Source: Calothrix sp. PCC 7716 (lineage in GTDB: Bacteria > Cyanobacteriota > Cyanobacteriia > Cyanobacteriales > Nostocaceae). Taken from it: a stretch of 64,000 nucleotides of DNA. Position 1 is the stretch's first letter, and every line of letters begins with the position of its first letter. The stretch lies in NCBI RefSeq assembly GCF_019977735.1, contig NZ_AP025018.1:5026580-5090579 (forward strand), read 5' to 3'. Made by a program: the position numbers and the translations under genes. A model generated the notes under the pieces. The model was not told the origin of the DNA, made no database searches, and saw only the letters and a program-made list of their open reading frames with translations. Positions 45,030 to 49,179 of the stretch are shown piece after piece.

Positions 45030-45528
45030 CTAGTATTTTATGACCTGTTGATTACAAAAAATAATTGCATCAAGCATGTCTAAAACTTCTGAGTCTTGCT
45101 CAAACTTTCTTGCAAAGAAAAATTCACCAGTAATTATTTTAGGGTAATCCTCTATAGTTAGAGTTTTTGGGCTACCATTGATACTTGCACATTTCGAGTA
45201 ATCATCATAAATTTTATGATGGCTAAAAAGATTGAATTTACCACTATTGACAAGAATTGTTTGTACTAAAGATTCTTCAGGCAATATCGTTTTTTTGTAA
45301 TACTTCACAAAGTTGGGATTTGTATCAACAAATTCTTTCAGATATTTGACGCATTTTCTTGAGACGAAGTGACGATGATTTCCACCATAGCAAATAAAAT
45401 TTTGATTAAAAGGAGGTTTTTTAGCTGCTACTCCTACTCTTAGCTCATAATTGAAATCTAATTTTAAAGGCAGCGCGTTCCAAATACTTAATGTTCTTAT
45501 TATAAACTTTCTTGTCCATCTAGGAAGG
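45030..45528 (-). pseudogene. 3' half of a transposon-split GT14-type (core-2/I-branching-like) glycosyltransferase
   Basis: Reading the minus strand from the 9-bp target copy gives YYTLPRWTRKF, then RTLSIWNALPLKLDFNYELRVGVAAKK, NFICYGGNHRHFVSRKCVKYLKEF, YYKKTILPEESLVQTILVNSGKFNLF and the terminal ARKFEQDSEVLDMLD. This is the C-terminal half of beta-1,6-N-acetylglucosaminyltransferase-like GT14 proteins (the GGNHRHFVSR and ILPEESLVQTIL motifs are typical). A stop codon at the element boundary (TAG in the element end) blocks translation from the element. Joined to 48740-49179 it makes 939 bases, exactly 313 codons. A downstream GTG (45308) could give only a 92-residue fragment. Confidence 0.9.
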
Positions 45529-45537
45529 GTATAATAC
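45529..45537. repeat. Left copy of the 9-bp target duplication GTATAATAC
   Basis: GTATAATAC directly precedes the left end of the 3.2-kb element. The identical right copy is at 48740-48748. One copy belongs to the original glycosyltransferase codons for Gln-Tyr-Tyr-Thr. Confidence 0.9.
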
Positions 45538-45626
45538 TAGGGTGTTGACTTTGGGCGCCTCGTGATGATATTTCTTCATACAGAATATATGTCGTTTTAT
45601 ACCCAGACTTTGGAAGTTGGTTTCTG

Positions 45627-45857
45627 ATGAATGAATTTAAAAGTCCGGTAAGCCGCTTGGTGCGTTTGTTTAAGCGAAGTCGAGACAATTGGAAAGAAAA
45701 AGCTCTGGATAAGCAAGAGAGACTTAGAGCGCTCGAGATAAAAGTCAGGGATTTGTCGCTTTCGCGAGAAAATTGGAAAAAGCGTGCGATGGAGGCTGAA
45801 AAAGAATTACGCTCAAAAGCAACCCAATCAGTTGATGGGCAAAAAAAGGGGATGTGA
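45627..45857 (+). CDS. Small charged coiled-coil protein of the transposon
   Basis: The protein has 76 residues and is very basic and helical (RLVRLFKRSRDNWKEKALDKQERLRALEIKVRDLSLSRENWKKRAMEAEKEL). Its repeated RDNWKEKA/RENWKKRA motif suggests a short coiled coil. Its stop TGA (45855-45857) overlaps the GTG start of the transposase (45854) in a GTGA arrangement, implying translational coupling. It may be a DNA-binding or multimerisation helper. Transposition accessory function is inferred from location only. I do not know a characterised homolog. Confidence 0.75.
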   Translation: MNEFKSPVSRLVRLFKRSRDNWKEKALDKQERLRALEIKVRDLSLSRENWKKRAMEAEKELRSKATQSVDGQKKGM

Positions 45858-47185
45858 ACAAAGATACGGATATAATTTTAAGTCCTACTGCAGAAAAAGT
45901 TAGAGCTTTAGGACATCATTACTGCATTCAAACGATACAACTCGCAGTGCAAGAAATAATTAATTGTGGAAGTAGTTTACGAGGAGTCGAGAAAATCTTC
46001 GAGTTATATAAAGAATTTACGTCCCTAGAGGCACCAAGTTTTAGCATTATTAGAAAATGGTTAGGGCGAATTGGTTTATATGAATTGAATAGAGAAAAAG
46101 AATATCGAACTGATTGGATTTTTATTGTTGACTTAACAGTAGAACTAGGAACACAAAAATGTTTAGTAGTGTTAGGAGTTACTCAAGAATATTTTGAACA
46201 AAGTGTTTTACCTTTAGAAAAAGGTTTAGCACATCAAGATGTTCAACTTTTAGCAATTGAAATTATGTACTCTACCAAAGGGGAACTAATTGAGCAAAAA
46301 TTAACCGAACTGAGTAATAAAGTTGGTTATCCGTTACAAATAGTATCTGACCACGGCTGCGACCTAGAAAGAGGAATCAGACTCTATAAGCAAAAACACC
46401 CTGATGTCATTTATACTTACGATGTGACTCATGCAATGGCTCTATTTATTAAGTACGAGCTAGAAAGTTCAGATAAATATCAATCTTTTAGAGTTGAGTG
46501 TAATCAGTGCCGTCGAAAACTTCAACAGACAGAATTAGCATTTCTATCTCCTCCATCTCAACGTTCTCTATGTCGTTATTTTAATATTGAGAATTTGATT
46601 GATTGGGCGCAAAATGTTTTAAACTCTCCAATTGAAACTATAATTGAATTGGCGCCAAATATTGAGCCAGCTATCTTAAACGAAAAATTGAAAGAAAAGT
46701 TTGGATGGTTAAATAACTATCAAGATGAAATTTTGATTTGGAATCAAATGGTTACAACTACAAGGAGCTTAGAAACTCAATTAAAAACTTGCGGAATTAA
46801 CCAACAATCTGTAGATACTTTTGAACTAGACGAAGTTTTATTAAATACGAGTCTAAGCTCAGAATTTAGACAAAATATCCTTGAATTTATTACAAGCGAA
46901 AGTAGTCAGATTCCTGAAGGGAAAACTTTGCTGGCAACTTCTGATGTGCTTGAGTCAATTTTTGGTAAATACAAGCAGTTTTCTTCTAAATCTCCTATAA
47001 AACAGATGGGTCAGATGATTTTAAACATTTCTTTATGCACTATGAATCTAACTACTTCAGTGGTAAAGCAAGCATTAGAAACAGTTCGGTATGTTGACCT
47101 TGAAATTTGGTTAAACCAAGTATTTGGACAGTCAATGCTCTCAAAAAGAAGAATTGTATTTTCTGGTTCTAAAGATGATACGTAA
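45854..47185 (+). CDS. Putative DDE-type transposase
   Basis: The protein has 443 residues. The N-terminal region (about 15-80) looks like helix-turn-helix DNA binding (CIQTIQLAVQEIINCGSSLRGVEKIFELYKEF, APSFSIIRKWLGRIGLYEL). A RNase H-like core follows: WIFIVDLTVELGTQKCLVVLGV (Asp93), PLQIVSDHGCDLERGI (Asp166) and LLATSDVLESIFGKYK (Glu367), which is a plausible DDE triad with a long helical insertion between the second and third acids. Similar proteins occur in cyanobacteria, often labelled hypothetical. GTG start at 45854 is coupled to the upstream gene. The flanking inverted repeats and target duplication strongly support transposase function. Confidence 0.8.
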   Translation: MNKDTDIILSPTAEKVRALGHHYCIQTIQLAVQEIINCGSSLRGVEKIFELYKEFTSLEAPSFSIIRKWLGRIGLYELNREKEYRTDWIFIVDLTVELGTQKCLVVLGVTQEYFEQSVLPLEKGLAHQDVQLLAIEIMYSTKGELIEQKLTELSNKVGYPLQIVSDHGCDLERGIRLYKQKHPDVIYTYDVTHAMALFIKYELESSDKYQSFRVECNQCRRKLQQTELAFLSPPSQRSLCRYFNIENLIDWAQNVLNSPIETIIELAPNIEPAILNEKLKEKFGWLNNYQDEILIWNQMVTTTRSLETQLKTCGINQQSVDTFELDEVLLNTSLSSEFRQNILEFITSESSQIPEGKTLLATSDVLESIFGKYKQFSSKSPIKQMGQMILNISLCTMNLTTSVVKQALETVRYVDLEIWLNQVFGQSMLSKRRIVFSGSKDDT

Positions 47186-48739
47186 CCGTAAATATCTAAT
47201 TATTTGAAGACCAAACTTCTTACATTTAATAACTTCTAAATATAAAATACCTAAAACTTTGTTTAGGAGTAGGTTTATCTTTATACCAGCTGGTTATGAA
47301 AGGAATCTATCAAGATATCTATTCTATCAGAAACGATAATTTTGTTTTTGGAAGTTGCTTATGTACAGCTATCATTGGAGTGCTGACGCGGCGCCAGCCG
47401 TCGGCACGTTGAATAACGTGCCCTCCGGTTTTGTGCTGTATTTTTATTGTATTTATATAAATTTTATTGTTTTTAGTTCTTCATATTTATGCATATATTT
47501 CGTCTGCAAAAAAACGGGCACTACTACAAGTAATTATTTCGCATTTAAATGTTTGACTTTTTCAAGTCAAATATAATTTTGCTTTAAACTCTTTATGTTT
47601 CTTGCTGTATAATATTTCTAAAGCTACACAACTTATCATTTTTTTACAAACCTGTTTTTTACTGACTAGTGACCGACAGGGCACTCAAGTCAGTAAAAAA
47701 CAGGTACCGGGTTGGGGTTTGGGGAAGGCACTCCAACGCCTACACGTTTGGGCTTTATGATAATTGTGAAAAACTCTTTATTCTTAATAAGGGAGCAGCG
47801 CCATTTTGTTAAGTGCGAAAAATTTAGGGTATAAATCGTCTCGGAATGGGGTAATTATAGGCGCCAAAATGAGAGATTATTGAGAATTAACCCTTTTTAT
47901 TGCGAATGAAATCCTAATTTAACTTTGGAGCATTGCTCCCCTTAATAAACTCATTTACTGATAACAAAGTTATAGCGTTGTTATCAGAACATAGTATGGC
48001 TATTGTATATATTTTAAATTGTATTGGATTTGTTCCGTATCTATTGGTAGCTATAGTTTTTGACTCATTTTAAGACCTGATGAGTTTCAGCGGGCGCAAA
48101 TAAAAATACGCTCACGTTTAATTCAATTAATAATTCATTATTTAAAGTAGAGTTATGTGGCGCAGCTACCTCTTGGCGCCCGCATGGCTTAAGTTATTTG
48201 TAAGAATAATAAATTTATTCGCGCAACACCACATAATAACTACTTACCTTATATCTTGCACATACATTTTTATATGTAACATTTATTGCCAAATTTTTGA
48301 CTACACCCATACCCGCCTAGGACTAAAAGTCCCTAGGCTAAAAGTAAAAGTCCATTAAAATGGACTGTATATTAAAGTAATATTGAAAACATGCTTTATC
48401 AAAATTAAGAATTAATACGTAGAGGTGCAAGATATGAGCTTCCGACTGGCGCCCCAAACGCACCAGTAAAATATGAAGCTAGCACATTTTTTGAAACCCT
48501 TCCTATATATAGATTTGTTGAATGTGCAAGTTAGAAGTTACCCCAACATATTGAGCCGATACTATTAACCCACTGATTTTTTTGATTTTTTAACCGGGAG
48601 TGATTTTTTATTTTTAGAATCGAAGCGTGCTTTGTAAAGAAATAGTTGGTCGAAAACCTCGCATGTTGAACCCGAGTTACGACGACACAAAAATAGCATG
48701 AAGTTTTTTCGGCTAATTTCCCACAAAGTCAACAGCCTA
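47186..48739. other. 1.55-kb noncoding right portion of the transposon
   Basis: No ORF here has an RBS plus a recognisable protein. AT-rich sequence is interrupted by GC-rich structured patches: a perfect 8-bp stem GGCACGTT/AACGTGCC (47403-47422), TTTGACTT/AAGTCAAA followed by a T-rich tail (about 47551-47580), a 17-bp perfect stem at 47651-47704, CTGATAAC/GTTATCAG (47958-47987), and CCTAGG-ACT/AGT-CCTAGG plus AGTCCA/TGGACT (48316-48366). Four GGCGCC sites are present, as in the host. It could encode a structured RNA or be decayed cargo. Confidence 0.6.
47651..47704 (+). repeat. 17-bp perfect long hairpin in the transposon tail, followed by a G-rich tract
   Basis: CCTGTTTTTTACTGACT (47651-47667) and its exact complement (47688-47704) enclose a 20-base loop that itself pairs AGTG with CACT. 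Directly after it comes CGGGTTGGGGTTTGGGG (about 47708-47724), a run of G tracts that could form a quadruplex. The arrangement looks like a structured RNA or a protein binding site rather than a simple terminator. Confidence 0.75.
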
Positions 48740-49179
48740 GTATAATACTGATTAAAGTAACGATGTAATCCTTCATTTATACTCCAATGACTTTGCTCAG
48801 AAAGAACATTATAAAATTCAATAAAGCCATCATATTCAGTTTTAGATAGGAAACTTTCAGTATCAGAAAGAGATTGTGCAGGATAATCTTGACCTGATAT
48901 ATAAGCTAGCCAATCATAGTTTAAGTTATTACTGTACAGCCAGTTAATACAATTTAAATAAGGCTGTAGTATACTAAAAGATCCTCGCTCTATAGAAAAA
49001 TTGGCTCTTAATAAATATACTCCTGGCAAATCTTGAAGATATCCCATACTGATAGAACTATTTGTAAAGTCATATCCAATCACAACCAAAGAATTAGGAC
49101 TTGATTTTTTAATAGTTCTAACAAGCCTATAAACTTGTTCTGGATTTTTATGAGCTTGAATAAAGTAACAAACTTTCAT
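48740..49179 (-). pseudogene. 5' half of the transposon-split GT14-type glycosyltransferase
   Basis: The first 146 codons are intact: MKVCYFIQAHKNPEQVYRLV, the GT14 strand YDWLAYISGQDYPAQSL, then DGFIEFYNVLSEQSHWSINEGLHRYFNQYYT, where the element interrupts. As the sequence stands, the frame runs on into the element for 57 foreign codons to a stop at 48565. A truncated chimeric 204-residue protein is therefore possible but lacks the C-terminal catalytic half. In intact form it would add a branching N-acetylhexosamine-type residue to the polysaccharide. It lies directly after the wzt-like gene in the operon. Confidence 0.92.

Follow-up and report, generated by a model that had tools for sequence, protein, structure and literature searches.

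A 3.2-kb insertion in a Calothrix glycosyltransferase gene, best read as one copy of an under-described family of DDE insertion sequences with a C/DxxH motif

What has split a glycosyltransferase gene in Calothrix sp. PCC 7716, and does the inserted DNA belong to any named family of transposable elements? The locus lies in a 64,000-nucleotide stretch of contig NZ_AP025018.1 (positions 5,026,580 to 5,090,579, forward strand; assembly GCF_019977735.1), here called the window, whose own coordinates are used throughout. A preliminary description, made from the letters alone, had proposed a base-exact 3.2-kb transposon carrying a small coiled-coil protein and a 443-residue protein of no family that it could name. 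The best reading of the follow-up reported here is an under-described insertion-sequence (IS) family of the C/DxxH kind, with a transposase of the DDE (Asp-Asp-Glu) type. We put at about 0.88 the probability that the window element is a copy of such a DDE-type insertion sequence, that its two open reading frames (ORF1 and ORF2) encode a single transposase made by slippage, and that the family has been missed by the annotation examined.

Recomputed from the sequence, the element spans 45538-48739 (3202 bp), with GTATAATAC on each flank. Its two termini match over 15 of 16 bp (TAGGG or TAGGC, then TGTTGACTTTG), giving 16-bp ends of the form TAGG[G/C]TGTTGACTTTG. Coordinates, terminal inverted repeats and 9-bp duplication all agree to the base with the preliminary description. 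Its statement that the boundaries are without ambiguity needs a correction: in the window copy alone, bases common to flank and tip let the edge slide by about one base, and the edge is fixed by other copies with different 9-bp duplications, some of them not ending in C. The window copy is inserted into a glycosyltransferase gene: removing the element together with one copy of the duplication yields a single ORF of 312 amino acids (939 bases including the stop), reproducing the in-frame restoration claimed earlier, and the Pfam family hit by this gene is PF02485, Core-2/I-branching enzyme (E 1.5e-10). The preliminary description had also suggested looking for a related strain with an empty site. 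Matches to the split gene were present in 19 of 60 related genomes searched (the window's own counted), the best intact relative outside the window's own gene being only 53% identical, and for that reason no orthologous empty site was seen among the 60. The parts of the locus are as follows.

45030..45537, minus strand: C-terminal half of the split glycosyltransferase gene
45529..45537, no strand: left copy of the target duplication, GTATAATAC (recomputed)
45538..45553, plus strand: left terminal inverted repeat, TAGGGTGTTGACTTTG (recomputed; also from the tips of other copies)
45575..45582, plus strand: subterminal box TTCATACA (38-45 nt inside the left tip), a probable second transposase-binding site
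45627..45857, plus strand: ORF1, 76 amino acids, coiled-coil-like (by eye), putative N-terminal part of the transposase
45836..47185, plus strand: ORF2, putative DDE transposase body with D93, D166, D190-x-x-H193 and E367; open from 45836, with a GTG at 45854 that gives 443 amino acids
45841..45848, plus strand: A7G run where ORF1 and ORF2 overlap, probably a -1 frameshift site
47186..48690, no strand: extra non-coding DNA, some pieces of it common to two sister copies and others genome repeats
48245..48540, no strand: nested repeat bounded by imperfect inverted ends of 22 nt, with an interior absent from the sister copies and matching other places in the genome
48695..48702, minus strand: subterminal TTCATGCT (38-45 nt inside the right tip), differing from the TCATRCA box at one base and possibly of the same role
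48724..48739, minus strand: right terminal inverted repeat, TAGGCTGTTGACTTTG (recomputed)
48740..48748, no strand: right copy of the target duplication, GTATAATAC (recomputed)
48740..49179, minus strand: N-terminal half of the split Core-2/I-branching-type glycosyltransferase gene

Is this a solitary insertion or one member of a mobile family? Two more copies lie in the window's genome; they share 99.8% identity over 2603 bp, and over the first 1.66 kb both are about 90% identical to the window copy. Elsewhere, near-identical copies occupy different sites within single genomes (four in G042, three in G068 and four in G338). The window protein was found in 9 of 386 genomes of the host's phylum, its own included, and a search with an alignment of 18 member proteins gave matches in 14 of 60 genomes, again counting its own, many of them fragments; the fragment matches L042-L044 (in G382, G357 and G091) were left out of the analyses. 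Relatives on 16 plasmid records come from Nostoc, Calothrix, Gloeothece, Chondrocystis (a fragment), the gammaproteobacterium Thiodictyon and Persicobacter (Bacteroidota). The family is present in three phyla, Cyanobacteria, Gammaproteobacteria and Bacteroidota, the gammaproteobacterial copy being 32% and the Bacteroidota copy 21% identical in protein to that of the window. No relative was found in the phage records and viral contigs searched. When the viral contigs were scanned with the 16-bp tip, 36 stretches gave one match each, about the chance expectation by our own estimate, and tblastn of the 18 member proteins against these stretches gave nothing better than E 0.42.

The plasmid annotation examined has passed the family by. 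At the best match, 13 of the 16 plasmid records list a hypothetical protein and the other three no gene; where annotated, the family is labelled hypothetical protein. The label "transposase," met in one search, belongs to a gene sitting between two pieces of a broken member.

In both sister copies (L027 and L028) the transposase gene is broken near residue 127. They carry this same break at different sites, with a 9-bp duplication in L027 only; they were therefore copied after the break, perhaps moved in trans. With 19 matches to the ISL3 transposase domain, the window's genome also seems to bear a sizeable IS load.

The ends of the copies carry the argument further. Among 33 full copies scored, with a pattern that itself required a TAG tip, an exact 9-bp duplication flanks 22 (21 distinct sequences), one matches at 8 of 9 positions and 10 at no more than 7; duplications are present in both Thiodictyon copies and in two of six from Persicobacter. 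The homolog flanks, which the preliminary description had proposed collecting, thus show TAGG-type ends with 9-bp duplications in several genomes and in all three phyla. Copy L178 lies outside the 33, its right tip having a substitution, and showed a 9-bp match in a separate duplication analysis. The tips are mostly TAGG[GC]TGTTGACT in cyanobacteria, TAGG[AG]TGTTCAAT in Thiodictyon, TAG[GC]CTGTCGAA in Persicobacter and TAGTGTGTTAATT in genome G072. A second conserved element, the box TCATRCA, is present in 48 of 66 full-copy ends, beginning 37-40 nt from the tip, and is absent at 17-34 and at 53-75 in the ends of full copies and short elements alike. It is lacking, among others, at one end of each Thiodictyon copy, at the right end of all three copies in the window's genome and at one end of L055.

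The left end of copy L034 (G068) bears a doubled 5-bp TAGGC between the 9-bp duplication and the tip. With this doubling allowed for, a 9-bp repeat is present, and the copy is nonetheless counted among the 10; the doubling may be left over from a joined-end intermediate or may reflect simple slippage.

The target is biased toward a dyad form like GGYWNWRCC. In a tally of 45 duplications (22 hand-collected and 23, matching at 8 or more of 9 positions, from short elements with the same ends, described below), G stands first in 40 and C last in 38, and complementary bases occupy positions 1/9 in 35, 2/8 in 23, 3/7 in 28 and 4/6 in 16; several of the 45 come from one genome rich in palindromic repeats and are not independent. 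Three copies, L039 and L163 (both G338) and L053 (Persicobacter plasmid pPP1), are flanked by 9-mers that are reverse complements and not direct repeats, which suggests that they landed in palindromes or between two inverted copies of some other repeat.

Why is the window copy 3.2 kb long? That size, given in the preliminary description, is correct for this copy and does not represent the usual unit: the two sister copies measure 2599 bp each and the other 30 scored copies, all from elsewhere, 1495-1959 bp. A transposition unit of the whole 3.2 kb is rejected by these sizes. The excess lies behind the transposase gene, where the DNA at 47186-48690 gives 51 matches in the genome, in pieces (its own place and the sister-copy pieces included), and some of these pieces correspond to scattered genome repeats. 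Pieces at about 47641-47790, at 47941-48248 and from 48538 onward are common to the sister copies, so some of the extra DNA has travelled with the element. This DNA contains nested repeats, of which the one at 48245-48540 has many other matches in the genome.

Much shorter elements share these ends. The window's genome has six of 163-168 bp with the same tips, allowing at most one mismatch. In all, 40 short elements of 152-370 bp were collected from five genomes (6 in the window's genome, G000, at no more than one mismatch; 26 in G338, 5 in G068, at least 2 in G042 and 1 in G387), counting only pairs with both tips found and listed and leaving out the pairs in G388 and G389. An exact 9-bp duplication flanks 19 of the 40, and 23 match at 8 or more of 9 positions; by comparison, shuffled left-right pairings gave 9 of 9 in 198 of 19477 draws. 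The TCATRCA box starts 37-40 nt from the tip in 53 of the 80 short-element ends. Of 192 sampled genomes of the host's family, 89 contain the exact 16-bp tip, up to 97 times per genome, and the same pattern read backwards appears only 8 times across all 192. The short elements are plausibly mobilized in trans by the family's transposase.

Does the transposase consist of one protein or two? Both ORFs are present as first claimed (76 amino acids at 45627-45857; 443, from a GTG start, at 45854-47185). ORF1 precedes ORF2 in another frame in the 15 two-ORF members examined, with a shift of -1 in 12 and +1 in 3. A run of seven or more A residues falls within the ORF overlap in 14 of these 15 (633 nt in total), ranging from A7 to A9, versus 18 such runs in 23541 nt elsewhere; the 15 members are related, and the 14 cases are not independent. 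Three members (L033, L045 and L047) have ORF1 and ORF2 fused in a single ORF, and 4 of 13 members lack any ATG, GTG or TTG for ORF2 upstream of the conserved start. Because of the A run in the overlap, the fused members and the missing ORF2 starts, we favor one transposase made by slippage, of which ORF1, coiled-coil-like by eye, is best read as the N-terminal part. The small coiled-coil partner of the preliminary description is accordingly a real and conserved ORF, better taken as a split-off N-terminal part than as a separate protein. The fusions and the A run also speak against a toxin-antitoxin pair. Simple translational coupling, in which ORF2 is read from its own start with no frameshift and ORF1 is a separate regulator, is allowed by the window copy, because the GTG of ORF2 overlaps the stop of ORF1 (ATGTGA), and some ATG, GTG or TTG does lie ahead of the conserved start in 9 of the 13 members. 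Given the three fused ORFs, the concentration of A runs in the overlap and the four members with no usual start codon, we consider coupling unlikely. In three members (L050, L057 and L041) an A9 run is followed by ORF2 in the +1 frame, an arrangement that would be more in keeping with transcriptional slippage than with -1 ribosomal frameshifting.

The preliminary description had singled out Asp93, Asp166 and Glu367 as a plausible triad. D93, D166, D190, H193 and E367 are invariant in the 18 members, down to 21% identity, which agrees with that proposal. The first and second aspartates (D1 and D2) are 67-73 residues apart; D2 and the DxxH motif are 24 apart in 15 members and 19 in the three from Persicobacter; and D2 and the glutamate are 185-261 apart. 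In a tree of the members the Persicobacter proteins sit far from the rest on a long branch, and the places of Thiodictyon and Gloeothece are unsure. A histidine of this kind is part of the active site in Hermes, according to an excerpt of the ISCth4 paper (PMC7780238). Could the 443-residue protein nevertheless be a passenger, with another transposase moving the element? In favor of the idea is that the protein is known from its sequence only; yet the invariant D, D, DxxH and E, and the finding that this protein and ORF1 are the only conserved proteins in the translated 1.5-1.96-kb elements, make it extremely improbable.

No Pfam or NCBIfam model claims the window protein (in NCBIfam, nothing at E ≤ 10), so that the earlier failure to recognize a family is borne out by profile searches; an IS66-like system was rejected on the same grounds. 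Across the 18 members Pfam gave only weak, scattered matches (best E 0.015), sequence searches of the PDB returned nothing significant (best E 0.94 and 0.048), and Rfam gave no match. The N-terminal region of the Persicobacter members aligns with IS5_2 (best E 6.2e-8) and with IS6 (best E 7.1e-6, running to profile position 90 of 202); members L045 and L047 match IS6 at E 0.005-0.008, and L048 matches phrog_2262, a transposase, at E 2e-4. These IS5 and IS6 likenesses amount to 16-33 bits and stay far below the models' cut-offs (IS5_2 at most 32.5 against 140; IS6 at most 25.9 against 125). We know of no large insert between D2 and the glutamate in the IS5 and IS6 families.

The structural case leans mainly on motif order, because the structure models are poor. 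A first AlphaFold model, of low confidence, shows strands and helices arranged in the order of an RNase H fold; Foldseek returned for it seven matches at E ≤ 0.001, all of them HIV-1 integrase chains with low TM-scores.

Where, then, might the family belong? It has the general marks of a DDE insertion sequence: terminal inverted repeats, a fixed 9-bp duplication, and D, D and E in order. Transposases with a C/DxxH motif and a helical insert form a wide group. Within it, the prokaryotic Mutator-like elements (p-MULT) have 8-9-bp duplications, a terminal C and a C/DxxH motif 11-19 residues after D2, as set out in part of the paper by Guerillot et al. (PMC3942029). A divergent branch of the Mutator/IS256 superfamily, as a further group of this kind, is conceivable, and we lean somewhat against it. 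Like IS256, ISH6, ISLre2/TnGBS and ISAzba1/ISMich2/ISKra4, the family combines DDE residues, a DxxH after D2, a long interval before E of the sort listed for p-MULT, 9-bp duplications and IS organization, and the ISMich2 group too has a predicted -1 frameshift (PMC3942029, same portion). In contrast to them, it gives no match to any Mutator, IS256 or ISKra4 model among the 18 members (Pfam E ≤ 1, NCBIfam E ≤ 10), its tip base is T and not a conserved C, its D2-to-DxxH spacing is 24 in 15 of 18 members (the value of 19 in the other three falls within the p-MULT range), its D2-to-E interval is longer at 185-261, and it has an added coiled-coil-like N-terminus and a dyad target like GGYWNWRCC. 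The base before the TAG tip is C in 38 of the 45 duplications and G or A in the other 7, so that this C belongs to the target and not to the element. A profile-profile comparison against ISKra4, ISL3, IS6 and IS256, with unrelated glycosyltransferases as a further set, found nothing; it is uninformative, because the ISKra4-IS256 positive control failed as well.

Kinship with the eukaryotic hAT superfamily (Hermes, Ac, Tol2) may also be entertained. The family shares with it the C/DxxH motif, a large insert and subterminal boxes, and the motif series SDxxSN...DxTH...ESxFG resembles hAT motifs. DUF659, which we take to be hAT-related, matches 5 of the 18 members weakly (best E 0.037, not significant), covering D2 and DxxH in the two members shown singly; RhoGEF and GAT, which are unrelated, match nearly as many members about as weakly. 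The hAT tip consensus is (T/C)A(A/G)NG (PMC6027215): TAGGG and TAGTG tips in part of the members fit it, and TAGGC and TAGCC break it. hAT elements have 8-bp duplications and a C-terminal hAT domain and seem restricted to eukaryotes, in the relevant section of PMC4763223, whereas the present family has 9-bp duplications, bacterial hosts and, among the 18 members, no Pfam match to the C-terminal hAT domain or to BED. That it is a prokaryotic relative of hAT we therefore judge improbable, distinctly more so than the Mutator/IS256 alternative. On its motifs the protein would work like a C/DxxH DDE transposase; we file it in no named family because the terminal C of p-MULT, and the 8-bp duplications and C-terminal domain of hAT, are not found in it.

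The earlier suggestion of an under-described insertion family is supported by the homologs with TAGG-type ends and 9-bp duplications and by the lack of any Pfam or NCBIfam claim on the window protein. Might the family already stand in ISfinder, for example among the ungrouped ISNCY or as ISNpu3-like elements, with only Pfam, NCBIfam and RefSeq lacking it? We rate this a serious possibility, a little short of even. ISNpu3-like elements are the proposed movers of the cyanobacterial Nezha, a miniature inverted-repeat transposable element (MITE), in an extract of PMC3049150, a pairing into which the present short elements would fit. On the other side, papers containing stretches of the end sequences included none on a cyanobacterial element by title or abstract, ISNpu3 is named in a single paper of the literature searched, and none of the 16 plasmid records has an IS name under its best match; each of these results is compatible with an ISfinder entry. 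Searches by end sequences and descriptive terms, judged from listings of mostly open literature, found no description of the family.

How would the element move? ORF1 and ORF2 together would make one transposase, with a coiled-coil N-terminus, a helix-turn-helix and then an RNase H-like core bearing D93, D166 and E367, the interval between D2 and E containing a large, probably helical insert that begins with the active-site DxxH motif. The full protein would probably arise by slippage, mostly -1, on the A7-A9 run in the ORF overlap. It would bind both ends, at the tip TAGG[GC]TGTTGACT and at the subterminal TCATRCA box, and join them to target DNA by cuts 9 bp apart, with a preference for dyads like GGYWNWRCC, moving the short elements in trans as well. 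As to the pathway, a guess from the C/DxxH motif and insert architecture slightly favors a circle-forming copy-out/paste-in route over cut-and-paste.

Several observations weigh against this account. The two AlphaFold models are weak (mean pLDDT, the predicted local distance difference test score, of 41.2 for the first and 56.5 for the second), and the second, of the first catalytic half only, has no fold match at E ≤ 0.001, though many of its top matches are RNase H-like enzymes. Good duplications are missing from 10 of the 33 full copies and from 17 of the 40 short elements, the ends of L007 and L047 were not found by script, none of the 12 Persicobacter ends has TCATRCA, and the element's right end in the window lacks its exact form. 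Three of the 15 two-ORF members need a +1 and not a -1 shift, L007 has no run of seven A residues in the overlap, and the start-stop overlap in the window copy belongs here too. The copies are related, which makes the counts non-independent, and the evidence for movement comes from sequence.

The family is also a candidate parent for MITEs that were left without a parent IS in Anabaena sp. 90, as reported in a portion of PMC3542288. Compared by description only, those MITEs (77-541 bp; PMC3542288, same portion) and Nezha resemble the short elements as small inverted-repeat elements of cyanobacteria; the difference is that the present short elements have the tip in common with their putative parent and, in 53 of 80 ends, also the box. 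The broadest version of the idea, that this is an unnamed, deep prokaryotic C/DxxH lineage near the origin of eukaryotic hAT and the missing parent of the parentless cyanobacterial MITEs, is a long shot, slightly less probable even than hAT kinship by itself; to our knowledge hAT has no established bacterial counterpart. In the family we have another C/DxxH transposase lineage with which to ask how the bacterial and eukaryotic groups relate, and naming it would explain gene breaks and scattered short repeats in the genomes of Nostocales.

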